From Candidatus Omnitrophota bacterium (GTDB taxonomy: Bacteria; Omnitrophota; Gorgyraeia; Duberdicusellales; 4484-171): a DNA stretch of 42,658 bases. The stretch is taken from contig JAMXCX010000010.1 in the NCBI GenBank assembly GCA_024542985.1, forward strand, positions 1 through 42,658, read 5' to 3'. This document shows positions 7,322-39,428 of the stretch, in pieces; the first letter of the stretch is position 1, and the number at the start of each line of letters is the position of its first letter. The notes beneath the pieces are model-generated. The model was not told the origin of the DNA. It saw only the letters and a program-made list of their open reading frames with translations, and did not search any database. A program made the translations under genes and the position numbers.

Positions 7322-8767
7322 TTACAGGATGGGTAAGTTACTCTTACCCATAAGGTAGGTATCAACTGAATGCGCAGCTTTTCGGCCTTCAGAAATGGCG
7401 TTAACGACTAAAGATTGGCCTATTCTGGCGTCTCCGGCAGCGAATGCACCTTTTTTGGAAGTCATAAAATTTGGATTAGTTTTTATATTTCCCCGCTTAT
7501 CCAACTCTAAGGCTAAATCTTTAACTAAACCTTGATGTTCGGGATGGATAAAACCCACGGCAATAATTACCAAATTAGCCTCTATTTTGAATTCAGAACC
7601 AGGAATTTCATGCATTACCGGACAGGTATTCGGAGCTTCTTTAGTAAATTCTGCCTGTATACATGAAAGCTTGGTTACTTGGCCGTTTTCGCCAATAAAC
7701 TTTTTGGTTAAAACTGCCCATTGACGGTCAGTTCCTTCCTGGTGCGATGATGAGGTCTTAAGTAATAAGGGGTAATTTGGCCAGGGATAATCACTAGTGC
7801 GGCACTCAAAAGGCCTAGGCATAACTTCGATTTGAACCACGCAAGAGGCACCTTGTCTATTAGCAGTACCTACGCAATCCGAGCCAGTATCTCCTCCGCC
7901 GATTACTACTACGCGTTTGCCTTTAGCGTCGATTGGCTCTTGGTTTGATATATCTTCGCCACTGACCCGGCGATTATTCTGCATTAAATAATCCATAGCA
8001 AAGTGGATTCCTCTTAACTCCCGGCCTTCAATTTTTAAATCTCGGGGTAGGCGCGAACCAATTGTTATCACTACGGCGTCAAAATCAGCTAATAATTGCT
8101 TGGCAGTAACATCCTTTCCTGCTTGAGTTTTAACTCTAAGCTCAATACCTTCTTTTTCTAAAATATCAAGGCGACGGTCAATTACCCATTTTTCTAATTT
8201 AAAATCAGGAATTCCGTAACGAAGTACCCCTCCGCATTTTTTGTCTTTTTCAAATAAAACTACCTTGTGGCCGCATTTATTTAACTGGGCTGCGGCACTC
8301 AGGCCGGCCGGGCCGGAACCGATAACTGCTATTTTTTTGCCAGTTCTTTTTTTAGGCGGCTCAGGTTTTATAAAGCCCTTTTTAAAACCATATTCAATTA
8401 TTGCTAACTCATTTTCTCTTATAGTAACCGGGTCATCATTTATACCTAAAACGCAAGAATACTCACAAACAGCCGGGCAAACTCGACCGGTAATCTCAGG
8501 AAGGTTGTTAGTAGCATTGAGAAGCTGAAAAGCTTTCTGCCATTGCTGAGAGATTACAGCATCATTCCATTCCGGGATATAATTACCTATAGGACAACCC
8601 CAATGGCAAAATGGTACTCCGCAATCCATACATCTTGAGGCTTGCTCTTCTGAATGTTCAGATCTAGGCGGATTAACAACTTCCTTGTAATCCTTAATGC
8701 GCTCACAAACCGGCCTATAGGAAACAACCTTGCGTTTTGTTTTTAAAAATGCTTTTATATCTTTCAT
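7322..8767 (-). CDS. gltD: Glutamate synthase (NADPH) small subunit
   Basis: 481 residues, normal for GltD. The N-terminal cysteine clusters that bind 4Fe-4S are present (SRCMDCGVPFCHWGCPIGN near 45-63, then GRVCPAVCEYSC near 95-105). The FAD-binding GxGxxG follows (IGSGPAGLSAA), then the NADPH-binding site (VIGGGDTGSDCVG) and the C-terminal FAD motif AAGDARIGQSLVV. It passes electrons from NADPH to GltB, which converts glutamine plus 2-oxoglutarate into two glutamates. It lies 45 bases after gltB at the end of the nitrogen-assimilation run. Confidence 0.95.
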   Translation of the reverse strand: MKDIKAFLKTKRKVVSYRPVCERIKDYKEVVNPPRSEHSEEQASRCMDCGVPFCHWGCPIGNYIPEWNDAVISQQWQKAFQLLNATNNLPEITGRVCPAVCEYSCVLGINDDPVTIRENELAIIEYGFKKGFIKPEPPKKRTGKKIAVIGSGPAGLSAAAQLNKCGHKVVLFEKDKKCGGVLRYGIPDFKLEKWVIDRRLDILEKEGIELRVKTQAGKDVTAKQLLADFDAVVITIGSRLPRDLKIEGRELRGIHFAMDYLMQNNRRVSGEDISNQEPIDAKGKRVVVIGGGDTGSDCVGTANRQGASCVVQIEVMPRPFECRTSDYPWPNYPLLLKTSSSHQEGTDRQWAVLTKKFIGENGQVTKLSCIQAEFTKEAPNTCPVMHEIPGSEFKIEANLVIIAVGFIHPEHQGLVKDLALELDKRGNIKTNPNFMTSKKGAFAAGDARIGQSLVVNAISEGRKAAHSVDTYLMGKSNLPIL

Positions 8768-8812: not shown

Positions 8813-11800
8813 TCAGCCATCAGATACCTCTCCTAACTGCAAACTTTCTGGTGCTTTTTTAGCTTCTAAGATACGCTTATATTCAATAGGCATAACTTTT
8901 ACAAATTTATTCAGGGCTAGAGAAAAATTATCTAAAATTTCTTTCGCCGGTTGACTCTGGGTATAAGTGTAATGATTATGAATTAAATTGTGGATTATTT
9001 CTTTATCTTCCGAATCGGGATTTTGAAGTTCAACCATGCTTAAATTACATCTATCTTTAAAGGTAGAGTCTTTATCGTAGACATAAGCAATTCCTCCGCT
9101 CATCCCGGCAGCAAAATTTCTCCCGGTACTGCCTAGAATAATTACTCTTCCTCCGGTCATATATTCACAGCCGTGATCTCCTACTCCTTCAACTACTGCG
9201 TATAAACCGGAATTACGAATACAAAAACGCTCCCCGGCTAGGCCTTTAATGTAGGCCTCTCCCTTTATTGCCCCGTAAAAGGTGGTATTACCGATTAAAA
9301 TATTAGCTTGAGGGTTGTAATCGGCGGCTTTACCGGGATAGATAATTAGTTTTCCTCCGGACATACCCTTACCTACATAATCATTAGTTAAACCTTCCAG
9401 CTCAAAAGTTACTCCTTTAGCCAACCAAGCTCCAAAACTCTGGCCGGCAACACCCCTAAATTTAAAATTGATTGTATCTTCGGGTAAACCGGCATCGCCG
9501 TAAAGCCGGCAGACTTCACCGCTCAACATTGCTCCGGTTGTGCGGTTAACATTTTTAATTTCTAGCTCTTCTTGGACTTGTTTTTGCTTCTCCAAAGCCG
9601 GCTTTGCCAATTTGATTAGTTTCCTATCTAAAACGCTATTAATGCCGTGGTCTTGAGGTTTTTGGCAATATATCCCGATATTTTTGGGAACTTGGGGCTT
9701 ATAAAGAATTTTTGTATAATCAATATTTTTTGCTTTCCAGGGAAGGATATCTTCATTTTTTTCTAGAAAATCAGTCCTTCCGATTAGTTCATCAATTGTG
9801 CCTACACCGAGCTGGGCCATTATTTCCCGTACTTCCTTGACCACAAACCGAAAGTAATTCTCAACCTGTTCAACCTTTCCTTTAAATCTATTCTGTAAAA
9901 TATCATCTTGAGTGGCCACCCCAACTGAACAATTATTAAGGTGACAATGCCGCAGCATTACACAGCCCATAACAATTAAAGCTGCAGTGCAAAAGCCGTA
10001 CTCTTCTGCTCCTAAAATTGCCGCAATCACGACATCCCTTCCGGTACGCATTTGGCCGTCAGTTTGCAGTCTGACCCGAGAACGTAAATCATTTAAAACT
10101 AAAGTTTGATGAGTTTCAGATAGGCCTAACTCCCAGGGAAGTCCGGCATGGCGGATTGAACTCATCGGAGATGCTCCGGTTCCGCCGTCTCCTCCGGAAA
10201 TCAAAATCATATCAGCATGGCCCTTAGCAACTCCGGCAGCAATTGTACCTACTCCCACTTCTGATACTAATTTTACGCTGATGCGAGCCCGGGGATTAGT
10301 ATTTTTTAAATCAAAAATAAGCTGGGCCAAGTCTTCGATAGAGTAAATATCATGATGCGGAGGCGGCGAAATTAAAGTTACACCCGGAGTCGTGTATCTA
10401 GTTTTAGCAATAGTTACACTTACTTTATGTCCGGGGAGTTGGCCTCCTTCACCGGGCTTTGCACCTTGAGCGATTTTAATTTGAAGTTCATCAGCATTAG
10501 TTAAATAATTTGCGGTTACACCGAAACGTCCGGAAGCAATCTGCTTTATTGAACTGCGCTTTGAATCGCCGTTAGGTAAAGGTGTAAATCTTTGAGGGTC
10601 CTCTCCGCCTTCTCCGGTATTGGAACGGCCTCCCAATCTATTCATGGCTAAAGCTAAGGTTTCATGGGCGCCGCGGGAAATTGAACCAAAACTCATGGCC
10701 CCGGTTGCAAAACGCTTGAGGATGTTTTTTGCCGGTTCAACTTCATTAATTGATATCGGTTTTGTTTTTTTGAATTTTAATAAACCCCGAAGAGTCGTGG
10801 GGGCTTTCGATTGCTCATTTATTAATTGAGTGAATTCTTTATAGCGCTGGTAATCATTAGCGCTGGTTGCATCTTGAATGGCTGAAATACTTTCCGGGTT
10901 CCAAAGATGAAATTCACCGTCTCTCCTCCATTGGTATAATCCGCCGCTAGCTAAAACCGGGCTCTCGATTTCACTTTCCCCAAAAGCCTGATTGTGGCGC
11001 ATAAGAGTTTCTTTTTGAATTACCTCAAAGCCTGCTCCCCCGATACGAGAAACTGTTCCTGAAAAACACTTATCAATAACCTCATCATTTAAACCAAGGG
11101 CTTCAAAAATCTGGGCTCCTCTATAGCTTTGCAAAGTAGATATACCCATTTTAGAAATAATCTTTAAAATTCCTTTATTAAGAGCTTTGCGGTATTGTTT
11201 TCTTGCGGTTTTAAAGTCACCTTCCAGCATCCTGTCACTGATTAAATACTGTAAAGTTTCATAAGCCAAGTAAGGATTAACACAATCTGCGCCATAGCCG
11301 AATAAAAGCGCGAAATGAAAAACCTCACGAGGTTCGGCACTTTCGACTACAATGCCGATTTGAGTACGCATTGATTTGCGCACTAAGTGATGATGTACTG
11401 CTCCCATTGCCAGGAGAACCGGTAAGGCGGCATATTCTTTATTAACTCCTCTATCGCTTAGGATAATAAAACTATAATTTTCTTTTATTGCTTTTTGAGC
11501 CTCGGCGCAGACTTTATCTAGGCTCTTTAAAAAAGCATTTTTATCATTAGCTTTAAAGAAAAGTGAAATTGTTTTTGTTCTAAAGTCTTTTTCTTTTATA
11601 CTGCGGATTTTTTCTAAATCTTCATCAAAAAGTATGGGCTCTTTTACCAAAAGCTTATGGCAATGTTCGGGAGCCTCTTCCAATATATTTTGCTGCCGGC
11701 CCACAAAGCTAATTAAACTCATTACGCACTCTTCTCTTATAGGGTCAATAGCCGGGTTAGTAACTTGAGCAAAAAGCTGTTTAAAATAATTATATAAACT

Positions 11801-13339
11801 TTGAGCGTTCTTAGATAACAGCGCCAGAGGGGTATCATTTCCCATTGAGCCCGTAGGCTCAAGGCCTTTTTGAGCCATGGGCACGATTAACATTTTTAAA
11901 TCTTCGCGGCTATAACCAAAAGCCTTCATTAAAGCAAGCAGGCTTTCTTCCGGGTGTTTTTTATTGTGAGTTTTTACATTATCAAGATCAACTAAATTAT
12001 TCTTTAACCACTCACCATAAGGCCTAGCAGTTGACACGGTTTGCTTTACTTCTTCATCGCTTACTATCCGGCCCTGTTCAGTATCAATGTAAAACATCTT
12101 ACCCGGCTCTAATCTTCCCGAAAGGGCGATATTTTCAGGCTTAATATCTAAAACACCTACCTCTGAAGCCATTACTACTAAATCCTGTTTAGTCACAATA
12201 TAGCGGGCCGGACGAAGACCATTTCTATCTAAAACTGCTCCTATACTAATTCCGTCAGTAAAAGCAATCGCTGCCGGGCCATCCCAAGGTTCCATAAAAC
12301 AAGCGTGGTATTTATAAAAATCAACTTGGCTTTCATCTAATAAAGGATTTTGTTCCCAAGCTGCCGGGATTAACATCATCATGGCGTGGGCGATTGACCT
12401 TCCGCCTAAAACCAGCAGTTCAAAAGCACTGTCAATAGTGGCTGAATCACTAACCCCGGAAATTAAAATCGGTTTTAATTTTTCAATATCCTTACCGAAT
12501 AAATCGCTCATCAGGAGCCCCTCTCGGGCCTGCATCCAGTTAATATTGCCTCTTAAAGTATTAATTTCTCCGTTATGAGCCAAGAATCTAAAAGGCTGGG
12601 CCAAATCCCAGGTAGGAAAAGTATTTGTGCTGTAACGTGAATGAACTAAGGCCAGTGAACTTTTAATACTCTCATCCTTAAGATCAAGAAAATAATCCTC
12701 CAGCTGATGAGTCATTAGAAGGCCTTTATAAGAGAAAGTGCGGCTGGAAATATTAGTGATATAAAAAAAAGACTCTTGCTTTAGATTAAGACCCCTGATT
12801 TCGTTTTCAACGAGTTTACGAATAATATAAAGGTTACGTTCAAAGTTAAGCTGGTCTTTAATTGCCGGATTACTTTTGATAAATATCTGTTTGATTATAG
12901 GTTCGGTATCTCGGGCAGTGGCTCCGATTCCGGAATTATCCAGAGGGACGTCACGCCAACCCAAAAGAATTTGACCCTGCTCTTTAATAGCCTTAGCAAA
13001 TACGTCCCGGCAGGCTTTACGTTCCCTATTATCGGTAGGCAGGAATATTAAACCGCTGCCATAAGAACCCAAGGCCGGTAAATCTATTTTTGCTTTTTGA
13101 CATATTTTCTGGAAAAATTCATCAGGAGTTTGGATAAGAAGTCCGGCTCCATCGCCGGTTTTGGGATCTGAACCGACCGCCCCCCGATGAGCCAGACGTT
13201 TTAAAACCTTTAAAGATTTAGTAATAATATCCTTGGACTTACGGCCTTTAAGATCACAAACAAATCCTACGCCACAAGAATCATGTTCAAACCGCGGGTC
13301 ATATAGACCTTGTTTTTTGGGAAATCCTGGTAATCTCAT
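8813..13339 (-). CDS. gltB: Glutamate synthase large subunit
   Basis: 1508 residues from ATG at 13339. This start gives the usual propeptide MRLPGFPKKQGLYDPRFEHD, S21, then C22-GVGF, where C22 becomes the N-terminal nucleophile of the class-II glutaminase. It also has GGAAAG eight bases upstream, whereas the longer reading from 13366 would overlap the preceding gene. Domains in order are glutaminase (about 22-430), central, FMN-binding synthase (GGRSNTGEGGED, then GGDGGTGASP), the 3Fe-4S cysteines (GCVMLRHCHLNNCSVGV) and the C-terminal GXGXG beta-helix (GGKLIIYPG, GGRVIILG, GGIAYVYD). It forms the GOGAT holoenzyme with GltD and takes glutamine from the GlnA encoded in the same run. Confidence 0.96.
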   Translation of the reverse strand: MRLPGFPKKQGLYDPRFEHDSCGVGFVCDLKGRKSKDIITKSLKVLKRLAHRGAVGSDPKTGDGAGLLIQTPDEFFQKICQKAKIDLPALGSYGSGLIFLPTDNRERKACRDVFAKAIKEQGQILLGWRDVPLDNSGIGATARDTEPIIKQIFIKSNPAIKDQLNFERNLYIIRKLVENEIRGLNLKQESFFYITNISSRTFSYKGLLMTHQLEDYFLDLKDESIKSSLALVHSRYSTNTFPTWDLAQPFRFLAHNGEINTLRGNINWMQAREGLLMSDLFGKDIEKLKPILISGVSDSATIDSAFELLVLGGRSIAHAMMMLIPAAWEQNPLLDESQVDFYKYHACFMEPWDGPAAIAFTDGISIGAVLDRNGLRPARYIVTKQDLVVMASEVGVLDIKPENIALSGRLEPGKMFYIDTEQGRIVSDEEVKQTVSTARPYGEWLKNNLVDLDNVKTHNKKHPEESLLALMKAFGYSREDLKMLIVPMAQKGLEPTGSMGNDTPLALLSKNAQSLYNYFKQLFAQVTNPAIDPIREECVMSLISFVGRQQNILEEAPEHCHKLLVKEPILFDEDLEKIRSIKEKDFRTKTISLFFKANDKNAFLKSLDKVCAEAQKAIKENYSFIILSDRGVNKEYAALPVLLAMGAVHHHLVRKSMRTQIGIVVESAEPREVFHFALLFGYGADCVNPYLAYETLQYLISDRMLEGDFKTARKQYRKALNKGILKIISKMGISTLQSYRGAQIFEALGLNDEVIDKCFSGTVSRIGGAGFEVIQKETLMRHNQAFGESEIESPVLASGGLYQWRRDGEFHLWNPESISAIQDATSANDYQRYKEFTQLINEQSKAPTTLRGLLKFKKTKPISINEVEPAKNILKRFATGAMSFGSISRGAHETLALAMNRLGGRSNTGEGGEDPQRFTPLPNGDSKRSSIKQIASGRFGVTANYLTNADELQIKIAQGAKPGEGGQLPGHKVSVTIAKTRYTTPGVTLISPPPHHDIYSIEDLAQLIFDLKNTNPRARISVKLVSEVGVGTIAAGVAKGHADMILISGGDGGTGASPMSSIRHAGLPWELGLSETHQTLVLNDLRSRVRLQTDGQMRTGRDVVIAAILGAEEYGFCTAALIVMGCVMLRHCHLNNCSVGVATQDDILQNRFKGKVEQVENYFRFVVKEVREIMAQLGVGTIDELIGRTDFLEKNEDILPWKAKNIDYTKILYKPQVPKNIGIYCQKPQDHGINSVLDRKLIKLAKPALEKQKQVQEELEIKNVNRTTGAMLSGEVCRLYGDAGLPEDTINFKFRGVAGQSFGAWLAKGVTFELEGLTNDYVGKGMSGGKLIIYPGKAADYNPQANILIGNTTFYGAIKGEAYIKGLAGERFCIRNSGLYAVVEGVGDHGCEYMTGGRVIILGSTGRNFAAGMSGGIAYVYDKDSTFKDRCNLSMVELQNPDSEDKEIIHNLIHNHYTYTQSQPAKEILDNFSLALNKFVKVMPIEYKRILEAKKAPESLQLGEVSDG

Positions 13340-13343
13340 TTTT

Positions 13344-13718
13344 TTAAACTTTCCATTTTCCGGCATTAATACTTAATTTTTTAATTTTCGACCGTAAAGT
13401 ATTGCGATTTATACCTAAAATCTTAGCAGCCTTTAGCTGATTGCCTTCTGCACGCTCTAAAACTGCTTCAATTAAAGGTCTCTCTATTTCTTCGAGCATA
13501 GCTTGATAAACCTGACCATTTTTTGTTATAAACAAGTTGTCTTTAAGCTCCACTATTTTTTCACCCAGAGAAGTTACTGCCTCACTATTTTTCTTGATGA
13601 TTTTTATTATACCGCCGCTTTGAGGTTCGTCTACAAAAGAATACCCCTGCTTTCGTAGAGCCTCCGAAAGCAACTCATAAATTTTCTTTTCGTCTTCTAA
13701 TACTAAAACTGTAATCAT
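13344..13718 (-). CDS. Small Fis-type DNA-binding protein with a truncated receiver-like N-terminus
   Basis: 124 residues. The C-terminus (about 70-118) is a Fis/NtrC-type helix-turn-helix: ERPLIEAVLERAEGNQLKAA, then KILGINRNTLRSKIKKL. The N-terminus starts like a response-regulator receiver (MITVLVLEDEKKIYELLSEA, then LRKQGYSF) but breaks off before the phosphorylated Asp, and there is no AAA+ sigma-54 domain. It therefore looks like the two ends of an NtrC protein without the middle. It ends four bases before gltB and sits in the nitrogen run, so a local role in nitrogen gene control is plausible. Without an AAA+ domain it cannot activate sigma-54 directly and may act as an architectural or repressor protein. 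Confidence 0.75.
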   Translation of the reverse strand: MITVLVLEDEKKIYELLSEALRKQGYSFVDEPQSGGIIKIIKKNSEAVTSLGEKIVELKDNLFITKNGQVYQAMLEEIERPLIEAVLERAEGNQLKAAKILGINRNTLRSKIKKLSINAGKWKV

Positions 13719-14551: not shown

Positions 14552-16051
14552 TTAGATGTCAAAATAAAGGTAAAACTCATAGGGATGCGGCCTTAGACGC
14601 AAGCTGTCAATTTCTTTTTCGCGCTTGTACTCAATCCAAGTCTCAATTACGTCTTTAGTAAACACATCGCCTCTTAAGAGAAACTCATGATCTTTCTCCA
14701 AAGCGTCTATAGCTTCTGCTAATGACCCTGGTACGCTGGGTATTCCTTCAGCTTCGCAAGGTGATAACTCATAAATATTTTTATCCAGCGGATTTCCCGG
14801 GTCAATCTTATTAATAATCCCGTCTATTCCGGCCATAAGCATAGCAGAAAAAGCCAGGTAAGGATTAGCTGCGCTGTCAGGAGGCCTAAACTCAATTCTC
14901 TTGGATTTAGGATTATCAGTATACATAGGTATTCTTACTGCAGCGCTTCTGTTACGGGCAGAATATACTAAATTTACCGGCGCCTCATAACCAGGTACGA
15001 GCCTCTTATAAGAATTTGTTGTGGGAGCGGCAAAAGCTAAAATTGCCGCTGCATGCTTTAATAAACCGCCGATATAGTACTTAGCTATTTGGCTTATACC
15101 GGCATATCCCTTTTTGTCATAGAAAATATTCTTGTTGTCTTTCCAGAGCGATTGATGGGTATGCATTCCGCTGCCGTTATCGCCAAAAAGAGGCTTAGGC
15201 ATAAAAGTAGCTGTCATTCCGAACTTGCGGACCATATTCTTAACGATATACTTATACATCAGGCAGTTATCAGCCATATTCACCAAGGTGCCGAACTTCA
15301 TATCTATTTCACATTGACCGGCAGTTGCAACTTCATGATGATGAACTTCAACCGGAATACCGGCTTTAATCATAGTCAAAATTATTTTGCTCCTTATATC
15401 CTGTAGGGAATCGTGCGGCGGAACAGGAAAGTAACCTTCCTTGAAGCGAGGTTTATACCCCAGGTTGGGTTTTTCATCCCGGCCTGAGTTCCACTCACCT
15501 TCAATAGAATCTACCTTATAGTAGCAAACATTTTCGCTCTGCTCAAACCTAACATCATTAAATATAAAAAATTCCATCTCCGGTCCCCAGCAAGTTTTAT
15601 CAGCAATGGCTGCTTTCCTTACATGCTCGGCTGCCTTTTTAGCAACATAGCGGGGATCACGGCTGTAAGGTTGTTTAGTTAAAGGGTCATAAATATCACA
15701 AATGATGCTTAAAGTCGGTACTTCACATACAGGGTCAAGAACAGCAGTCGATGGATCAAGCATCAAAATCATGTCTGATTCCTGTATTTTCTGAAAACCT
15801 CTGATTGAAGAACCGTCAAAACCAATACCTTCAGACCAGATACTTGATACTGGATCATCGATTTCGGTTAATTCCGACACCGGCATGGAAAAATGTTGCC
15901 AAAGGCCGGGCAAATCATTAAACTTTAAGTCTACAATCTGAATATTGTGCTGCTTAATTAGGTCGTTTACTCTTTTAATGTCGCTTGCCTTTACTTGTCC
16001 GTCCCAACGCATAGCAACTGTTTCTGTTCTTTTTGCTACTGCTTCTTCCAT
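14552..16051 (-). CDS. glnA: Glutamine synthetase type I
   Basis: 499 residues. Visible signatures are [18 protein letters not shown] (beta-grasp), SIRGFQ, the ATP-site segment [18 protein letters not shown], and [20 protein letters not shown]. The adenylylation-loop tyrosine is kept (KNIYELSP), so GlnE-type control is possible. Compared with usual GlnA (about 470 residues) there is an N-terminal extension of roughly 25 residues ([20 protein letters not shown]...); the ATG is supported by GGGGGTAG upstream. It makes glutamine from glutamate and ammonia, fed by Amt and watched by the P-II proteins encoded just upstream, and its product is used by GltBD downstream. Confidence 0.96.
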
Positions 16052-16082: not shown

Positions 16083-16424
16083 TCAACCAATTGCCTCATG
16101 GCCACTTTCCCCTGTTCTTATCCTTATACATTCCCCTAAATCAACCACTAATATTTTCCCATCTCCAATGTTACCGGTACGCGCTCCCTTTATGATTGCC
16201 GCAATCGTAGATTTTACAAAATCCTCATTAACCGCAACCTCTAATCTAACTTTCTTAAGAAGATTTACTTCATGAATTACTCCCCGGTAAGTTTCAGTGA
16301 AACCTTTTTGCTGACCGCAACCAAGAGCATTAGTAACTGTCATTTTGTGCACATCGGCCTCAAAAAGTGCTTTTTTCACATCCGATAGTTTGTGTGGCTG
16401 AACCATTGCTATTATTAACTTCAT
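16083..16424 (-). CDS. glnB: P-II nitrogen regulatory protein
   Basis: 113 residues, canonical P-II length. The B-loop ([13 protein letters not shown]) and C-loop ([10 protein letters not shown]) that bind ATP/ADP are intact, as are Q39 and K58. In the T-loop, Y46 is kept but the uridylylated tyrosine is replaced: position 51 is His ([13 protein letters not shown]). Control by GlnD uridylylation at Tyr51 is therefore unlikely, leaving 2-oxoglutarate/ATP/ADP sensing. It sits between amt and glnA, has an excellent Shine-Dalgarno (AAGGAGG), and is preceded by two strong hairpins. Probable partners are Amt and GlnA. Confidence 0.95.
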
Positions 16425-16448
16425 TTTTTACCTCCTTGATTTTTCGCC

Positions 16449-16475
16449 TTCGGCGGAAAATTAATATCCGCCGAA
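16449..16475 (-). other. Hairpin immediately upstream of glnB
   Basis: TTCGGCGGA and TCCGCCGAA form a perfect 9-bp stem with a 9-nt loop. It ends about 12 bases before the glnB Shine-Dalgarno and has no U-tract. It may protect a processed glnB-glnA mRNA end or tune glnB translation. Confidence 0.55.
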
Positions 16476-16476
16476 T

Positions 16477-16521
16477 CTGGGTAAATTTAGCATCTTGTAC
16501 TCAAGGTGCAAATTTACCCAG
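16477..16521 (-). other. Long near-perfect hairpin between amt and glnB
   Basis: CTGGGTAAATTT (16477-16488) pairs perfectly with AAATTTACCCAG (16510-16521). Inside it GCATCTTG/CAAGGTGC pairs over eight more base pairs with a single bulged base at 16489 and a tetraloop. The result is a roughly 20-bp stem in a 45-nt element with no U-tract. A related CTGGGTA string also forms the end of the amt coding region (16568-16574). It could be an RNA processing or stabilising site that separates amt from glnB-glnA expression, or a dyad for a regulator. Confidence 0.65.
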
Positions 16522-16564
16522 TATATAGCGCAACGGATGTAGTACTAACAAATACATACAAAAT

Positions 16565-17914
16565 TTACTGGGTAGTAAATATCTGAAAACCACTATAAGC
16601 TTCCATGCCGTGCTCACCAATGTCTAACCCTTTGAGCTCCTCATCTTTAGATACTCGTAAACCCACAGTAGCCTTGATTATCCCAAAAAGAGCTAAGGCT
16701 GCCCCAAAAACCCAAACAAATACTGAAACTACACCTATAACTTGAGTAATAAACTGGCTTATTCCTCCTCCGAAAAATAATCCATTTGTACCACCATAAG
16801 CTTCTTGGGCAAATAAACCCACGGCTAATGTCCCCCAGGCACCGCATACTCCATGCACTGATATAGCGCCTACAGGGTCATCTATATGAAGCACCTTATC
16901 TATAAACTCCACACTGAATACAACCAGAATTCCTCCGATTGCCCCAATCATAATCGCACCCAAAGGCGAAACATTGGCACAACCAGCAGTAATAGCTACC
17001 AATCCGGCAAGAGCTCCATTTAAGGCCATACTAGTGTCAGGTTTTCCAAATTTTATCCAGGCAATAAACATAGCGCAAATAGCACCGGCTGCAGCAGCTA
17101 AATTTGTAGTTACAGCAATTACTGCTATGCTTAAATTTGTACCGGCAGTTGTACTCCCGGCGTTAAATCCAAACCAACCAAACCAGAGGATAAACACGCC
17201 TAAGGCCGCCAAAGGGATATTATGACCAGGTATAGCCCTTGAAGAACCATCTTTGCTGTATTTTCCCAGCCTTGGCCCCAGCATTATAGCACCGGCTAAA
17301 GCTGCCCAGCCACCTACTGAATGAACTACTGTTGAACCAGCAAAATCAATCATTCCTCTAGCTGCTAACCAGCCATTACCCCAGATCCAGTGCCCAACAA
17401 CAGGGTATATTATCGCGCTGACAAACACACTGTACCAGAGATAGGCACTGATTTTCGTTCTCTCAGCCATGGCGCCAGAAACTATTGTTGCCGCCGTGGC
17501 AGCAAACACTACTTGAAACATCCAAAAAGCAAATTGCCATTGCCCCTCCCCAGTGGAAGGATTTGCTGCACTTAAGAAAAAACCATCACTACCGAAAAGC
17601 CCAAAAGCGCTTGCTCCAAACATTACACCAAACCCAATAGCCCAATAAGCAATTGCACCCACTGAAAAATCCATAAGATTTTTCATCATTATATTGCAGG
17701 CGTTTTTGGCCCGGGTAAAACCGGTCTCAACCATAGCAAATCCAGCTTGCATAAAGAACACTAAAAATGCCGCAACAAGTGTCCAGACAGTATCAATAGC
17801 TTTAGCATTACTTTGGACGCTAGCTTCGGCAAAAGCAAAACCAGCCCCGCAAATAGTCAATAGCGAAACTAGTAAAAATAGTCTCCCCAATTTTGGTCTA
17901 AATATTCGTATCAT
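16565..17914 (-). CDS. amt: Ammonium transporter
   Basis: About 449 residues from ATG at 17914, chosen over the ATG nine bases upstream because AAGGATGG then sits at proper spacing. An N-terminal signal-like helix is followed by eleven membrane segments. Typical Amt motifs are seen: FFMQAGFAMVETGFTRAKN, DFAGSTVVHSVGGWAALAGA with the first pore histidine, and ISVHGVCGAWGTLAVG with the second. It moves ammonium/ammonia across the inner membrane. A P-II gene lies on each side, matching the conserved amt-glnK pairing in which P-II blocks the channel under nitrogen excess. Confidence 0.96.
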   Translation of the reverse strand: MIRIFRPKLGRLFLLVSLLTICGAGFAFAEASVQSNAKAIDTVWTLVAAFLVFFMQAGFAMVETGFTRAKNACNIMMKNLMDFSVGAIAYWAIGFGVMFGASAFGLFGSDGFFLSAANPSTGEGQWQFAFWMFQVVFAATAATIVSGAMAERTKISAYLWYSVFVSAIIYPVVGHWIWGNGWLAARGMIDFAGSTVVHSVGGWAALAGAIMLGPRLGKYSKDGSSRAIPGHNIPLAALGVFILWFGWFGFNAGSTTAGTNLSIAVIAVTTNLAAAAGAICAMFIAWIKFGKPDTSMALNGALAGLVAITAGCANVSPLGAIMIGAIGGILVVFSVEFIDKVLHIDDPVGAISVHGVCGAWGTLAVGLFAQEAYGGTNGLFFGGGISQFITQVIGVVSVFVWVFGAALALFGIIKATVGLRVSKDEELKGLDIGEHGMEAYSGFQIFTTQ

Positions 17915-17987
17915 ATAAACCATCCTTTTTAAAAATATTTAATTGCTCATATACCCTATTCATTCATCATTCTCCCGCTTTTAAAAG

Positions 17988-18308
17988 TTAAAAAATGGCA
18001 GTTTCTCCCCGTTCTCCGGTTCGTATTCGCATACACTCCTCCATTGGGAGCACGGCAACCTTACCACTGCCAAATTTATCATCGCGGCAGCATTCGCTAA
18101 TAGCGTTTAGAATTTCATCAACTTGGTTATCAAGAGCATAAATCTCAACTTTGGTTTTAGGTAAGAAGAGATACTGCTGCGGTCTTGTAGTCTGCACTCC
18201 AAAACCTTTAACTTCTGTAGCCATCATTCCTCCGATACCGGCAAGCAACAACCTATCTGCCACATCTTTTAATTTTTCTGACCGTATGATACACTCTATT
18301 TTCTTCAT
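17988..18308 (-). CDS. P-II family protein with shortened T-loop
   Basis: 106 residues from ATG at 18308 (GGGGGTG nine bases upstream; a GTG at 18320 is a less likely start). The P-II fold is recognisable: MKKIECIIRSEKL, TEVKGFGVQ with Q39, LPKTKVEI, a modified B-loop (KFGSGKVAVLP) and an intact C-loop (MRIRTGERGETAI). The T-loop between G37 and the LPK motif is about seven residues shorter than in E. coli GlnB and has no uridylylation site (TTRPQQYLF). It is the first gene of the nitrogen run, directly behind three tandem attenuators. It may gate Amt differently from GlnB or bind another partner. Confidence 0.9.
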   Translation of the reverse strand: MKKIECIIRSEKLKDVADRLLLAGIGGMMATEVKGFGVQTTRPQQYLFLPKTKVEIYALDNQVDEILNAISECCRDDKFGSGKVAVLPMEECMRIRTGERGETAIF

Positions 18309-18325
18309 CTCTACTATCACCCCCT

Positions 18326-18380
18326 AAAAAAAGAAAAGGTATCCTGCTATCATCATCATTGACAACAAAACACCTTTGTT
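18326..18380 (-). terminator. Attenuator 3: hexaloop hairpin overlapping a terminator
   Basis: On the minus strand AAC-AAAGGT-GTT forms a 3-bp stem with hexaloop AAAGGT (18377-18372; A1, G4). Its loop and 3' side are the 5' arm of a longer hairpin (AAAGGTGT with ATACCTTT, plus inner GTTGTCA/TGATAGC) that ends in TCTTTTTTT (to 18326). The two folds exclude each other. It lies immediately before the ribosome-binding site of the first P-II gene. Confidence 0.65.
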
Positions 18381-18399
18381 AAATGCAGCCCCTCGGGAC

Positions 18400-18453
18400 A
18401 AAAAAAGGCATCACTTCATTAATGACACCCTTGTTCTAGCACATCACTGTGCT
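18400..18453 (-). terminator. Attenuator 2: two-hairpin ANTAR-like motif with terminator
   Basis: First hairpin: AGCAC-AGTGAT-GTGCT (18453-18438), perfect 5-bp stem and hexaloop with A1 and G4. One base later comes GAAC-AAGGGT-GTC (18436-18424), a weaker stem with a bulge and loop AAGGGT, again A1/G4. Its 3' half belongs to the terminator GGTGTCA...TGATGCC followed by seven T (18429-18400). This module matches the ANTAR two-hairpin consensus best. Confidence 0.65.
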
Positions 18454-18470
18454 TCAATTACAAAATTGGC

Positions 18471-18515
18471 AAAAAAAATCCCCAAGCTTATCTTTGCTTG
18501 GGGCACCTTTGCCTC
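18471..18515 (-). terminator. Attenuator 1: hexaloop hairpin overlapping a strong terminator
   Basis: GAGGC-AAAGGT-GCCCC (18515-18500) has loop AAAGGT (A1, G4). Its 3' side CCCC is the beginning of a strong terminator, CCCCAAGC/GCTTGGGG (8 bp), followed by A and eight T (18503-18471). Only about 17 transcribed bases precede it. A possible first hairpin (TGAC-GAGGAA-GTTG) lacks A1. Confidence 0.65.
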
Positions 18516-18538
18516 ATCACAACTTCCTCGTCAGCTTA

Positions 18539-18567
18539 AATATAACATTTTGAATTCAGGCTGTCAA
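18539..18567 (-). promoter_or_regulatory. Near-consensus promoter of the nitrogen-assimilation run
   Basis: TTGACA (18567-18562), a 17-nt spacer and TATATT (18544-18539). The -35 box overlaps the stop codon of the oxidoreductase gene upstream. The predicted start near 18532 puts all three attenuators inside the transcript. Confidence 0.75.
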
Positions 18568-19682
18568 GCATTTTTTAAAACTTTTTTCACAATTTCTGCT
18601 ATAGCCAGGCAAGCTGTCAGTCCCGGAGACTCTATGCCAATAAGGTTAACAAATCCCGGCAAACCTTTATCGCTTTCATGCTGTATGATGAAATCTTTGA
18701 AAATCTCATCCTCTTTCTGCAATTTTGGCCTTACTCCAACCGTATCAGGCACTAAGTCCTCCGCCTCTAAAGAAGGTAAAAATCTCTTAACTGATTCGTA
18801 AAAACAACCTTGATCAGCCTCATCAATCTGATAATTAATTTCGCTGATATACTTTGCATCCGGGCCCAAACGCAAGCCTCCTCCTAGATCCGGAGTAATA
18901 TGAATGCCCAAACTTATTTGCGTTGCGCAAGGATAAACGAGATGAGAAATAGAAAATTTTTTAGGATTACCTATACGAAAATATTGGCCCTTACAGTAAT
19001 TAAGCCGATAAAAATACTTATCAATATCTATACCTGCCATTTGGGCTACTTTATCTGAATTTAAACCTGCGGCATTTATCACAGCTTGGCTTTGAAAAGA
19101 AAAAGTATCCCCCTTAGGCTCTTTGACAGTAATTTTATAATGCGAGCCTCGCCAGGCCAAAGCTGCTGCTTCTGTACAAAAAGAAAAAGTCACACCATTA
19201 TCTTTAGCTTTGGTATAGAAAAAATTCATCAAAGAATGAGAATCAATTATGCCTGAATCCGGAGATATAAATCCGAATTTGGCAGAAATTTGAGGTTCTA
19301 ATTCTTCAATATCGCCAGAGTCTAAGAATTTTAAATTTTTAACCCCGCACTTTTGGCCATTATAATATATTTTTTCTATTTTTTTAATTTCTTCATCATT
19401 GCAGGCAACAACTAGCTTTGTTGTTTTTTTATAAAGAATGTTATATTTAGAACAAAGTTCATATAGGAGATATTTGCCTCTTATACAAGTTTGGGCCTTA
19501 AAAGAATCCGGAAGATAATATAATCCGGCATGAATTACTTCAGAGTTGCGAGATGAAATTTCCTGGCCAAAAGAATCATTCTTTTCCAAAACAACAATAT
19601 CCTGGTGAAATTTTGAAAGCACATAAGCAATACTTAAACCTACGACTCCGGCTCCGATAATTGTAATTTTAGTTTCTTGCAT
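18564..19682 (-). CDS. FAD-dependent oxidoreductase, L-2-hydroxyglutarate oxidase-like
   Basis: 372 residues from ATG at 19682. A DAO-type flavoprotein with FAD-binding IIGAGVVGLSIAYVLS at the N-terminus, the second FAD strand VVLEKN, SSRNSEVIHAGLYY typical of LhgO relatives, and a C-terminal GIESPGLTACLAIAE. LhgO-type enzymes oxidise L-2-hydroxyglutarate to 2-oxoglutarate and pass electrons to the quinone pool, which fits a place beside glutamate-synthase genes that consume 2-oxoglutarate. Glycerol-3-phosphate or other 2-hydroxyacid oxidation cannot be excluded. Its promoter is so close that the mRNA is probably leaderless, which explains the lack of a Shine-Dalgarno. Confidence 0.82.
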   Translation of the reverse strand: MQETKITIIGAGVVGLSIAYVLSKFHQDIVVLEKNDSFGQEISSRNSEVIHAGLYYLPDSFKAQTCIRGKYLLYELCSKYNILYKKTTKLVVACNDEEIKKIEKIYYNGQKCGVKNLKFLDSGDIEELEPQISAKFGFISPDSGIIDSHSLMNFFYTKAKDNGVTFSFCTEAAALAWRGSHYKITVKEPKGDTFSFQSQAVINAAGLNSDKVAQMAGIDIDKYFYRLNYCKGQYFRIGNPKKFSISHLVYPCATQISLGIHITPDLGGGLRLGPDAKYISEINYQIDEADQGCFYESVKRFLPSLEAEDLVPDTVGVRPKLQKEDEIFKDFIIQHESDKGLPGFVNLIGIESPGLTACLAIAEIVKKVLKNA

Positions 19683-19691
19683 ATTTAACAA

Positions 19692-19785: not shown

Positions 19786-21447
19786 CTAGGATACGCGCAC
19801 GCCTGACTCTGACTTCATAATCTCTTTAGCAACGGTATCATTTTTTTCAGTAATAAAAGTAATGTCTGTTTCAGCGGCTGTTTCTCTATTAGCTGCATAG
19901 ATATCGTCTCTGGTGATTTCCGGCAAAGAAAATTTACGGGCTCCGGCCATTAGCTGCTGTAAACCTGCGGCTAATTTATCAGCCAAGGTCCAAGCGGCTA
20001 TTGCGCCAAAGGGAATATTTTTCATCTCATTTTTACCAACTTTCTTTTGGACATCGTAATAACCAGCAAATATTTCCTCCGGGCCCATTCCAAACTCAGA
20101 AACAGAAGAAGGTAATTTATCCCAATTTCCGTTTACTTTCTGTCTAACATCAGGATTAACTACTCCTTCGATATTCGATCCTAAATATGCAGGTATCATC
20201 AAAGATCTCCCCATGCAGATTAACTTTGTAAATGGTGCGCCTAAAGCAAGGGCTTTAAAAATTTGATCTTCTTTTGCCAGGCCGCCGGCGAAAGCAATAT
20301 CTACCACATCCTCGCCTTTATCAGCAAGAATCTTGGCATATTCATAAGCTTTAGCGTGTAAGTGAAGCGAAGGAACACCCCAGGTTTCCATCATATTCCA
20401 AGGACTCATGCCTGTTCCGCCACCCGAACCGTCGATGGTAAGCAAGTCTAATTTTGCTTCAGAGGCGTACTTAATTGACATAGCCAAAGCTTCCATGCCG
20501 TAAGAACCTGTTTTTAAAGATATCCTCTTGTAGCCTAACTTACGGAGGTACTCAACAGACTTCATAAAGTTTTCTTTTACCGCCTCGCGTGAAGAAAGGC
20601 TGGTATAGCCTAAGCGGCTGTGGCGGGCAAAAGACCTTATAGCTTTATGTTTAAAGGCTTCCTGAACTTCAGGGGCAGCTGGGTCAGGATCAACTACATA
20701 ACCTCTGTTTTTTAAAAACAAGGCATACTCAATGCTTGTAACCTGGATTTCACCTCCAATGTCCTTTGCTCCCTGGCCCCACTTAAGCTCAATAATTACC
20801 TTATCGCCGTATTTACCAATTGCATATTCAGCAACTCCGTTGCGAGTATCCTCAACGTTTAGCTGAACAATAATTGCGCCATACCCGTCGTAATAACGCA
20901 GGAAAGTTTCAATTCTTCTATCCAATTCAGGAGCTTTGGCTATTTTACCGTTTTTAATCTCTGCCTGCTTATCAATTCCTACTACGTTTTCACCGACAAC
21001 TATCGGATATCCAACTAAAGCAGCGCCGATGGCGAATGATTCCCAATATTTAGCAGCAATAAAAGTTGAACCTAGAGCTCCGGTCATTACAGGAACTCTG
21101 AATTTTGTTTTAATTTTAGCTCCGAATTCTCCGCTAAGGCTTACATTAGGAAAAATGCAATCATCTTCTGAACTAGAAAGACCTTTTGGTAATCCACATG
21201 CTCCATAGTTATAACCATCAATACGCAAACCATTATAGTTTACTCCAACATGAGTTGTGTTAGCACTACCTGCAGTGATGGCACCGAAGTCTCTTGGATA
21301 CAATAGCTTTCTTCCTTTTAAACTTGAAAGCCAAGTCTCGCATTTTCCCTTACAATCTGCACGGCACAATGTACACAATCCAGATTCGCAAGGATTGCCA
21401 CGATTCACAGTACCCAGCGCGTCATTGCTTTTTGGCCATTGAATCAT
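19786..21447 (-). CDS. Stand-alone FMN glutamate-synthase-domain protein
   Basis: 553 residues carrying the GOGAT synthase/FMN-binding domain (IDGSGGGTGMSP, DIAFAGGLAKEDQIFKALAL) but neither the class-II glutaminase nor the GXGXG domain of full GltB. An N-terminal cysteine cluster (C21, C26, C29, C33, C37 within NPCESGLCTLCRADCKGKCE) could bind an iron-sulfur centre. It resembles archaeal-type glutamate synthase domain proteins, which use separate partners. Likely partners here are the NfnB/GltD-like and NfnA-like genes upstream. It has its own promoter, attenuator and terminator, so it is transcribed alone. ATG at 21447 is preferred over GTG at 21450 because AGGAGG is then five bases upstream. 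Confidence 0.88.
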   Translation of the reverse strand: MIQWPKSNDALGTVNRGNPCESGLCTLCRADCKGKCETWLSSLKGRKLLYPRDFGAITAGSANTTHVGVNYNGLRIDGYNYGACGLPKGLSSSEDDCIFPNVSLSGEFGAKIKTKFRVPVMTGALGSTFIAAKYWESFAIGAALVGYPIVVGENVVGIDKQAEIKNGKIAKAPELDRRIETFLRYYDGYGAIIVQLNVEDTRNGVAEYAIGKYGDKVIIELKWGQGAKDIGGEIQVTSIEYALFLKNRGYVVDPDPAAPEVQEAFKHKAIRSFARHSRLGYTSLSSREAVKENFMKSVEYLRKLGYKRISLKTGSYGMEALAMSIKYASEAKLDLLTIDGSGGGTGMSPWNMMETWGVPSLHLHAKAYEYAKILADKGEDVVDIAFAGGLAKEDQIFKALALGAPFTKLICMGRSLMIPAYLGSNIEGVVNPDVRQKVNGNWDKLPSSVSEFGMGPEEIFAGYYDVQKKVGKNEMKNIPFGAIAAWTLADKLAAGLQQLMAGARKFSLPEITRDDIYAANRETAAETDITFITEKNDTVAKEIMKSESGVRVS

Positions 21448-21502
21448 CACACCCTCCTTTTTTTAAGCACTTTATGCCTATTTTTTAAGCAGTGTTTCAA
21501 AT

Positions 21503-21558
21503 AAAAAAAGCGCTCTCTCCCTACCTCTTAAAATAGAGAAAGAACGCCCTTGTTCTTT
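21503..21558 (-). terminator. Attenuator 4: ANTAR-like hexaloop hairpin overlapping a terminator
   Basis: AAAGAAC-AAGGGC-GTTCTTT (21558-21539) is a perfect 7-bp hairpin with hexaloop AAGGGC (21551-21546; A1, G4, closed by C-G). Its 3' arm is the 5' arm of a 10-bp terminator, GCGTTCTTTC with GAGAGAGCGC (21519-21510), followed by seven T (21509-21503). The folds exclude each other. The string GAACAAGGGYGTY is shared with attenuator 2. No first hairpin fits between the promoter and this element. Confidence 0.72.
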
Positions 21559-21563
21559 CACCA

Positions 21564-21591
21564 AATATACCAATTAAAACTAAACTGTCAA
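21564..21591 (-). promoter_or_regulatory. Promoter of the stand-alone glutamate synthase gene
   Basis: TTGACA (21591-21586), a 16-nt spacer and TATATT (21569-21564), the same boxes as the P-II operon promoter. The predicted start near 21557 is at the foot of the attenuator hairpin, so the leader is about 110 nt. Confidence 0.7.
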
Positions 21592-38419: not shown

Positions 38420-39428
38420 TCCCCAGCTTTATTTTAGCTAAATTACTGCTGATGCCGTGCCTGACATTTTTATCACAAATTAGTTTTTTTAATAAACTGC
38501 TAAAACTATCAAAAGAAAAATTATCCTGCCGAATAACAAATGCAGACTCCCTTTCTTTAAAATAGGAGGCATTCTGCTTTTGATGGCCGCCGGCTTTAGG
38601 GTGGGGTATCAAAATCGACGGTAAGCGGTAAAATGCTATTTCAGCTAGCGTACTTGCGCCGGCACGGGAAATTACTATGTCAGCCGCGCTGTAAAGAACC
38701 TCCATCATATAATAAAAGTCTTTGATAAATTTATTATTTTTTATCCGTTCATATCTTTTTATTATCTGAGAGTATCCGCTTTTACCTGTAAGGTGAATTA
38801 TCTGATAATCTTCGCGAAAATGTTCAACAAACCTAACAAAGGTAGCATTTATAAAGGCTGACCCCTGACTACCCCCTAAACAAAGGAGGACTGATTTCTC
38901 ATTGAAATTCAGCATTTTACGCGCCTCGGCCTTGTCTATCTTTCTTATATTTTCTCTTAAGGGAACTCCAACTGTCGTTATTTTTTTGTTCTGCTTAGAA
39001 TCTTCAAATGCGCGCAATATCTTATGCACAAAAGGAGAGAGAAATCTATTAGCCCTGCCCATCTTTATATTTGGTTCGTATATAGTTGTTTCTATCAAAA
39101 GAAGAGCGCTGAAAAGAACCAAAAAGAAACTATCTCTGCCGCCAAAACCAATGACGCGGTCGGGCCTTAAAGTTAAAATAAGATATAATGCTTCTAGAGG
39201 CCTAAAAATACCTTCAATGAACAAATTTCTAAACCGGAGAGCTCTACCCACAACCTTGAACCCCTCTTTTTCTATATAACTTTTGAGGAATGCCGATGTG
39301 ATAAAAAAATAGACCGCCTCGGCTGAGGCCTGGGAAAGATTGCTCTTAGTGCCTAAGAGCTTTCTTGCAAAACACAAAGCCGGAAAAATATGCCCGGCAC
39401 TTCTTTCACAAGCTAAAAGTATTTTCAT
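38382..39428 (-). CDS. murG: UDP-N-acetylglucosamine--MurNAc-pentapeptide-PP-undecaprenol GlcNAc transferase
   Basis: 348 residues of GT28. C-terminal donor-site motifs are clear: LCLGGSQGSAFINATF, SRAGASTLAEIAFYRLPSIL and IPHPKAGGHQKQNA. The N-terminal glycine loop, normally GGTGGH, reads ACERSAGH here, keeping the catalytic histidine but losing the glycines; VIGFGGRDSFFLVLF matches the second loop. It forms lipid II on the inner membrane. Its place between ftsW and murC agrees with the assignment. Confidence 0.9.
   Translation of the reverse strand: MKILLACERSAGHIFPALCFARKLLGTKSNLSQASAEAVYFFITSAFLKSYIEKEGFKVVGRALRFRNLFIEGIFRPLEALYLILTLRPDRVIGFGGRDSFFLVLFSALLLIETTIYEPNIKMGRANRFLSPFVHKILRAFEDSKQNKKITTVGVPLRENIRKIDKAEARKMLNFNEKSVLLCLGGSQGSAFINATFVRFVEHFREDYQIIHLTGKSGYSQIIKRYERIKNNKFIKDFYYMMEVLYSAADIVISRAGASTLAEIAFYRLPSILIPHPKAGGHQKQNASYFKERESAFVIRQDNFSFDSFSSLLKKLICDKNVRHGISSNLAKIKLGIDFENFCTSTYF

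Follow-up and report, generated by a model that had tools for sequence, protein, structure and literature searches.

A leader of serial putative ANTAR-controlled attenuators ahead of the nitrogen assimilation genes of an Omnitrophota bacterium

The window, by which we mean the whole 42,658-nucleotide stretch of Candidatus Omnitrophota DNA analysed here, carries on its minus strand a run of genes in the order P-II, amt, P-II, glnA, GATase, Fis-type HTH protein, gltB and gltD-like, which probably forms one transcript. An oxidoreductase gene (18564-19691) ends directly upstream of the leader of this run. GTG 18320 was considered as the start of the first P-II gene, and ATG 18308 is likelier. The leader contains a promoter and three hexaloop-terminator modules, and a fourth module precedes a glutamate-synthase-like gene. 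In the list that follows, P1 is the first hexaloop hairpin of a module and P2 the one overlapping the terminator; loops are in brackets, and the terminator energies of modules 1 to 3 are those of the version extending into the hexaloop.

21564-21591, minus strand: module 4 promoter, TTGACA-N16-TATATT, read directly
21538-21559, minus strand: module 4 lone hexaloop hairpin, GAAAGAAC[AAGGGC]GTTCTTTC, at about the transcription start; -7.9 kcal/mol
21501-21551, minus strand: module 4 terminator and U-tract; -25.4 kcal/mol; R2 match 21555-21501
19786-21450, minus strand: glutamate-synthase-like gene, 3' of module 4; Pfam Glu_synthase 6e-16
18539-18567, minus strand: leader promoter, TTGACA-N17-TATATT (TTGACA 18567-18562, 17-nt spacer, TATATT 18544-18539), read directly
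18521-18532, minus strand: module 1 P1 hairpin, GAC[GAGGAA]GTT, at about +1; model R1 match
18502-18513, minus strand: module 1 P2 hairpin, GGC[AAAGGT]GCC (loop 18510-18505); within the R1 match
18471-18510, minus strand: module 1 terminator (hairpin 18503-18480) and U-tract (to about 18471); -16.8 kcal/mol
18438-18453, minus strand: module 2 P1 hairpin, AGCAC[AGTGAT]GTGCT; -5.4 kcal/mol
18424-18436, minus strand: module 2 P2 hairpin, (G)AAC[AAGGGT]GTC (loop 18432-18427); read directly, weak R2 match of 13.8 bits
18399-18432, minus strand: module 2 terminator (hairpin 18432-18404) and U-tract (to about 18399); -11.3 kcal/mol
18369-18380, minus strand: module 3 lone P2 hairpin, AAC[AAAGGT]GTT (loop 18377-18372); R2 match
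18327-18377, minus strand: module 3 terminator (hairpin 18377-18335) and U-tract (to about 18327); -20.1 kcal/mol
17988-18308, minus strand: P-II gene, first after the array, likely start ATG 18308 (MKKIE...); Pfam P-II 6e-21
16565-17923, minus strand: amt, ammonium transporter; Pfam 8e-133
16083-16424, minus strand: glnB, second P-II gene; Pfam 6e-26
14552-16051, minus strand: glnA, glutamine synthetase; Pfam 3e-136
8813-13366, minus strand: gltB, glutamate synthase large subunit; Pfam GATase_2, Glu_syn_central, Glu_synthase and GXGXG
7322-8767, minus strand: gltD-like subunit; Pfam Fer4_20 and Pyr_redox_2

The earlier note, made from the letters of this stretch, had described the TTGACA-N17-TATATT promoter followed by three terminators with U-tracts, and rereading gave the same arrangement (18503-18471, 18432-18399 and 18377-18327). 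The loops AAAGGT, AAGGGT and AAAGGT were likewise found again, all three closed by a C-G pair and carried on a hairpin whose 3' side is the 5' arm of the terminator. The claim that module 2 has a hairpin pair one base apart held for AGTGAT, which sits on a proper P1, and less well for AAGGGT, in whose stem only two pairs are consecutive and a third, G-C, is bulged. The linker between P1 and P2 is 7 nt in module 1 and about 1 nt in module 2, and modules 3 and 4 have no such pair. Hexaloops with A at position 1 and G at position 4 (A1/G4) on a stem of at least three pairs are present as the P2 of modules 1, 3 and 4 and as the P1 of module 2; position 1 of the module 1 P1 loop is G instead of A. 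The hexaloop hairpins have energies of -2.8 to +2.2 kcal/mol, the P1 of module 2 and the hairpin of module 4 being the exceptions, and the terminators range from -11 to -25 kcal/mol.

A strict rule was applied that calls for an A1/G4 hexaloop on three or more pairs and, overlapping it, a U-tract terminator at -11 kcal/mol or below; modules 1 and 3 of the leader pass it, and module 2 does not because of its short P2 stem. When the leader was dinucleotide-shuffled 1000 times, 983 shuffles contained no such module, 17 contained one and none contained two. Modules 1 and 3 escape a strict dual-hexaloop rule, and the hairpins were therefore scored singly and then modelled. No Rfam family scored above its gathering score anywhere in the window, and the leader gave one sub-threshold chance match.

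Two covariance models were built from relatives, with the window sequence excluded from both, and both matched modules of the window. R1 comprises the P1 hairpin plus the module-1 terminator and comes from 7 relatives, and R2 describes the lone-hexaloop modules of relatives. Mixed alignments (A1 and A3) misaligned the terminator 3' arms, and the models used the register-consistent subsets A4 and A8 only. R1 matched the window at 18533-18471 over its full length with 45.8 bits (E 1.2e-5, the E-values of both models being rough), and this was the only match in the genome at E<=0.5. Because the match spans GAC[GAGGAA]GTT, we take this hairpin to be the P1 of module 1. Thus, of the two modules in which the first hairpin had been called poor or absent, module 1 has one and module 3 is indeed a lone hexaloop.

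With R2, four matches in the genome rose above noise, at rough E-values again, and the fifth-ranked had an E-value of 2.9. These four are module 4 (the top match, 21555-21501, 33.3 bits, E 9e-4), the leader of carA on contig C29, with carB next (E 1e-3), the leader of a cluster of redox genes on contig C85 (E 0.015), and module 3 (18381-18330, 27.1 bits, E 0.02 genome-wide). Within the window, modules 4, 3 and 2 were the top three, module 2 being weak. Note that the hexaloop stem of module 4 starts at about +1 and the promoter is too near for a P1, which makes module 4 necessarily one with a lone hexaloop. The carAB module (L188, G000:C29:24017-24067) belongs to the same genome as the window, and the redox cluster, of iron-sulfur/flavin genes, is preceded by what is apparently a two-module array (L189, G000:C85:2030-2084).

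Other hairpins were also seen in the window. The amt-glnB gap (16440-16565) holds the inverted repeats GGGTAAATTT...AAATTTACCC and TCGGCGG...CCGCCGA, which form hairpins without a U-tract; similar GGGTAAAT repeats lie in the amt/P-II gap of locus L007. The hairpin at 39339-39380 has T-runs on either strand and may be a terminator working in both directions; it passes a loose hexaloop rule by chance.

We inspected in detail 37 leaders drawn from the R1 matches among relatives and 237 genomes of the phylum. At least two hexaloop-terminator modules were present in 28 of them, and three in 11 (L145, L149, L153, the window, L161, L163, L173, L174, L175, L177 and L181), which contradicts, for this phylum, the earlier view that three in series is unusual. 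In most of the relatives' leaders a CTTGACA-N16/17-TATANT box immediately precedes the first hexaloop hairpin, and P1 is therefore at about +1 in most leaders. Loop position 4 was G in all the first hairpins scored (33/33), and position 1 was A in 28 of the 33. The P-II-first operons (L145, L161 and the window) share the P1 stem GAC/GTY, and their loop position 1 is T, C or G, not A. Downstream modules are almost always lone hexaloops and the dual hexaloop is usually confined to the first module, where the presence of P1 is partly due to selection because R1 contains P1; its absence downstream is unaffected by this. Many downstream modules are packed 3-12 nt behind the preceding U-tract, and in about 20 of those from relatives the gap between U-tract and P2 is at most 12 nt, so that a 3-bp hexaloop P1 hairpin cannot fit. 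A missing first hairpin had been read as a hint of a different RNA-binding protein or ligand, and it loses this meaning since later modules in Omnitrophota normally lack P1.

Behind the arrays of relatives lie sigma-factor-like genes, glnA, GSIII, gltB, carA, carB, porins and amt, named by Pfam or otherwise read off the translations. The sigma-70-like gene, of about 175 aa with weak Pfam Sigma70_r2/r4 matches, is found behind an array in many Omnitrophota, often right after a GAF-ANTAR gene (loci L143, L144, L146, L147, L150, L151, L154, L157, L164, L174, L177, L178 and L185). An ANTAR-to-sigma-factor cascade is possible in this phylum.

Compensatory changes, which the earlier note had proposed to look for in homologous leaders, were present both in the P2 stem and in the terminator arms. 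In the P2 stem of 40 downstream modules they occur at 3 of 4 pairs (in the covariation sets pairing percentages are inflated, some P2 stems having been collected by a rule demanding pairing), with lower values in slid controls. This covariation, like that of the terminator stem in 14 register-consistent modules, was reached in 0 of 500 shuffles, a test in which related sequences can exceed shuffles. In the same 14 modules, position 5 of the hexaloop covaries with the terminator 3' arm, being G-C in 9 and A-U in 5. Moreover, across 30 modules the letters of the P2 5' arm go with those of the terminator 3' arm (98 of 120 letters equal, 78 expected, 0 of 10000). This is what competition of the two arms for one middle strand would produce, and it is consistent with the P2 hairpin and the terminator being mutually exclusive. 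The rule of a hexaloop plus a terminator is unspecific when used alone, as 16% of ordinary terminators satisfy it; our claims therefore rest on the models, the linkage and the covariation.

An ANTAR protein is encoded in this genome, as the antitermination reading of the earlier note would have it. The MAG holding the window as its contig C7 (1.57 Mb, 88% complete) has a single ANTAR match, a 247-aa GAF-ANTAR protein (G000:C51, E 9.8e-20) that scores 68.3 bits with Pfam ANTAR vs a cut-off of 27.3. Its gene is directly downstream of a second glnA on contig C51, which is not the window contig, and no array of its own is visible at this glnA-GAF-ANTAR pair. In the PDB, EutV (6WSH/6WW6) and Rv1626 are its top-ranking ANTAR matches. 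Among the 11 RNA-contact residues of EutV listed in PMC8934654, 9 are identical (R142, K143, K147, K149, E160, Y164, R168, M172 and R175), the departures being N173 to D and R177 to P.

ANTAR proteins are present in 177 of the 237 Omnitrophota genomes and go together with the leaders. An ANTAR gene was found in 25 of 26 phylum genomes with an R1 match vs 152 of 211 without (p 0.007), and in 22 of 23 vs 22 of 35 nearer relatives (p 0.005), the two sets overlapping. In 12 genomes the ANTAR domain is followed on the same strand by the array, which begins 40-132 nt further downstream; three more arrays lie about 2.2 kb upstream of the domain, and two of these immediately precede a glnA. Two R1-matching MAGs, G008 (86% complete) and G213 (93% complete), yielded no ANTAR gene; their R1 matches are good (G008:C39:850-918 and G213:C80:512-566). 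GAF-ANTAR proteins were termed uncharacterised in a 2012 paper (PMC3369931).

The published ANTAR motif is a dual hexaloop, and extension of the linker by 20 nt abolished EutV antitermination (PMC8934654). In many bacteria, ANTAR RNAs are known ahead of P-II and amt and of the genes for glutamate and glutamine synthases (PMC3369931). Ramesh et al. (2012, PMC3369931) already counted 13 ANTAR attenuators distributed over six transcription units of Desulfotomaculum acetoxidans, so the principle of attenuating in series through ANTAR is not new. The Desulfotomaculum and Pelobacter regulons of that paper resemble ours in their targets (P-II, amt, glutamate/glutamine synthases) and in having more than one attenuator per unit, and differ in having been detected with a dual-hairpin model. 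The leader has in common with the eut attenuators of Enterococcus faecalis, read by EutV, the A1/G4 hexaloops closed by three pairs, a second hairpin whose 3' arm also serves the terminator, the presence of several attenuators along a single set of genes, and a protein with matching RNA-contact residues. In contrast to eut, the attenuators here are stacked in one leader, the later modules lack the first hairpin, position 1 of the module 1 P1 loop is G, and the Omnitrophota protein senses through a GAF domain joined to ANTAR in place of a two-component receiver. NasR/nasF of Klebsiella and AmiR/amiE of Pseudomonas are also cases of ANTAR antitermination of nitrogen genes via a leader terminator, with one attenuator per operon and a NIT or amide-sensing input (general background and PMC3369931).

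When R1 was run on 80 amt loci, mostly from other phyla, no strong match was obtained, but the simpler hexaloop plus terminator rule does find tandem modules among them. Tandem C-G closed hexaloop terminators precede amt in Thermoanaerobacterium, Erysipelotrichaceae, Sedimentibacter, two Ruminococcus, a Caldatribacterium and a MAG named Alistipes, and ANTAR is present in each of these genomes. The Firmicutes amt leaders L072, L088, L090, L126 and L131 (Thermoanaerobacterium, Sedimentibacter, Ruminococcus and Erysipelotrichaceae) resemble the Omnitrophota arrays in having two serial terminators with C-G closed ANNGNN hexaloops; unlike the window leader, they apparently lack P1 in both modules. 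In the open-licence papers searched we found no report of the one-P1/many-P2 layout, of lone-hexaloop modules or of ANTAR regulation in Omnitrophota.

The structures and their mutual exclusivity, the covariation, the conserved loops, the models from relatives, the ANTAR gene with its contact residues, the linkage in relatives and the regulon members argue, at the level of sequence, that the leader consists of transcription attenuators linked in a chain and controlled by ANTAR (probability about 0.88), and so support the antitermination proposed by the earlier note. The imperfect P2 of module 2 and the lack of P1 in module 3, set beside the published dual motif, speak against it, as do the instability of the module 3 P2 on its own, the two R1-matching genomes in which no ANTAR gene turned up, and the glnA-GAF-ANTAR pair at which no array is visible. 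An alternative is that every module is an ordinary, independent EutV-type dual-hexaloop attenuator with later first hairpins degenerate or overlooked: module 2 does have a proper P1 one base 5' of its P2, and a weak GGG[GCTGCA]TTT is possible ahead of module 3. However, the tightly packed downstream modules of relatives leave no room for a P1, and module 4 starts at about +1, and we consider this explanation unlikely.

The G at position 1 of the module 1 P1 loop would suit hexaloops read by another RNA-binding protein or by a small-molecule riboswitch. Yet the leader matches no Rfam family, and the loop rules, the dual hairpin, the terminator overlap, the ANTAR-gene linkage and the RNA-contact residues all favour ANTAR, which makes such a reader very improbable. 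Even slighter is the chance that the hairpins serve simply to terminate transcription arriving from upstream and so insulate the P-II/amt genes. Tandem terminators can insulate, and the oxidoreductase gene does end just upstream, but the promoter sits at the end of that gene, 5' of the terminators, so that as insulators they would stop the operon's own transcript. Moreover, hexaloops with R at position 1 and G at position 4 are enriched on array terminators (20/26 vs 210/1328 other terminators, p 2e-11).

If the leader is such a chain of ANTAR attenuators, we infer protein binding, signal and read-through as follows. By default, polymerase would meet three intrinsic terminators before P-II/amt/glnB/glnA/glt and little transcript would pass; with terminators strong and hexaloop hairpins weak, termination should be the default and bound protein would be needed to hold the antiterminator. 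The GAF-ANTAR protein would be active most likely under nitrogen limitation, as suggested by the target genes. Its dimer would then bind the hexaloops as they emerge: P1 at the RNA 5' end, the P2 of module 1, and later ones in turn. Since P2 borrows the 5' arm of the terminator as its own 3' arm, a held P2 would block the terminator. The protein would have to act fast at module 3, where P2 is unstable alone (+1.3 kcal/mol) against a terminator of -20 kcal/mol. If EutV is a guide (PMC8934654), P1 would be where the dimer loads before it acts at P2, and in P1-less modules the protein would either re-bind directly or be handed on. Full expression would require read-through at each step, giving less leak and a sharper response. 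We put forward tentatively, at somewhat less than even odds, a wider model in which single-hexaloop ANTAR attenuators are used in series by Omnitrophota and probably by some Firmicutes: a 5' P1 would load the GAF-ANTAR dimer, and this dimer, or followers, would work the P1-less modules, many of them 3-12 nt apart, so that the nitrogen assimilation genes would lie behind an AND-like gate of several steps.

Judged by its letters, the leader is a well-supported member of the known ANTAR attenuator kind with a variant layout. The compact serial layout of one P1 followed by lone hexaloops appears to be common in Omnitrophota and undescribed. The 2022 EutV structure paper proposed one hexaloop as the minimal ANTAR target and left open the extent of single-hexaloop use (PMC8934654). 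In these natural arrays one protein should meet dual and lone hexaloops within one transcript, a layout that lets the sufficiency of a lone hexaloop be tested. Finally, these results provide a candidate nitrogen regulon for an uncultured phylum, comprising P-II, amt, glnA, glt, carAB and the sigma-factor-like gene, and a candidate function for GAF-ANTAR proteins.
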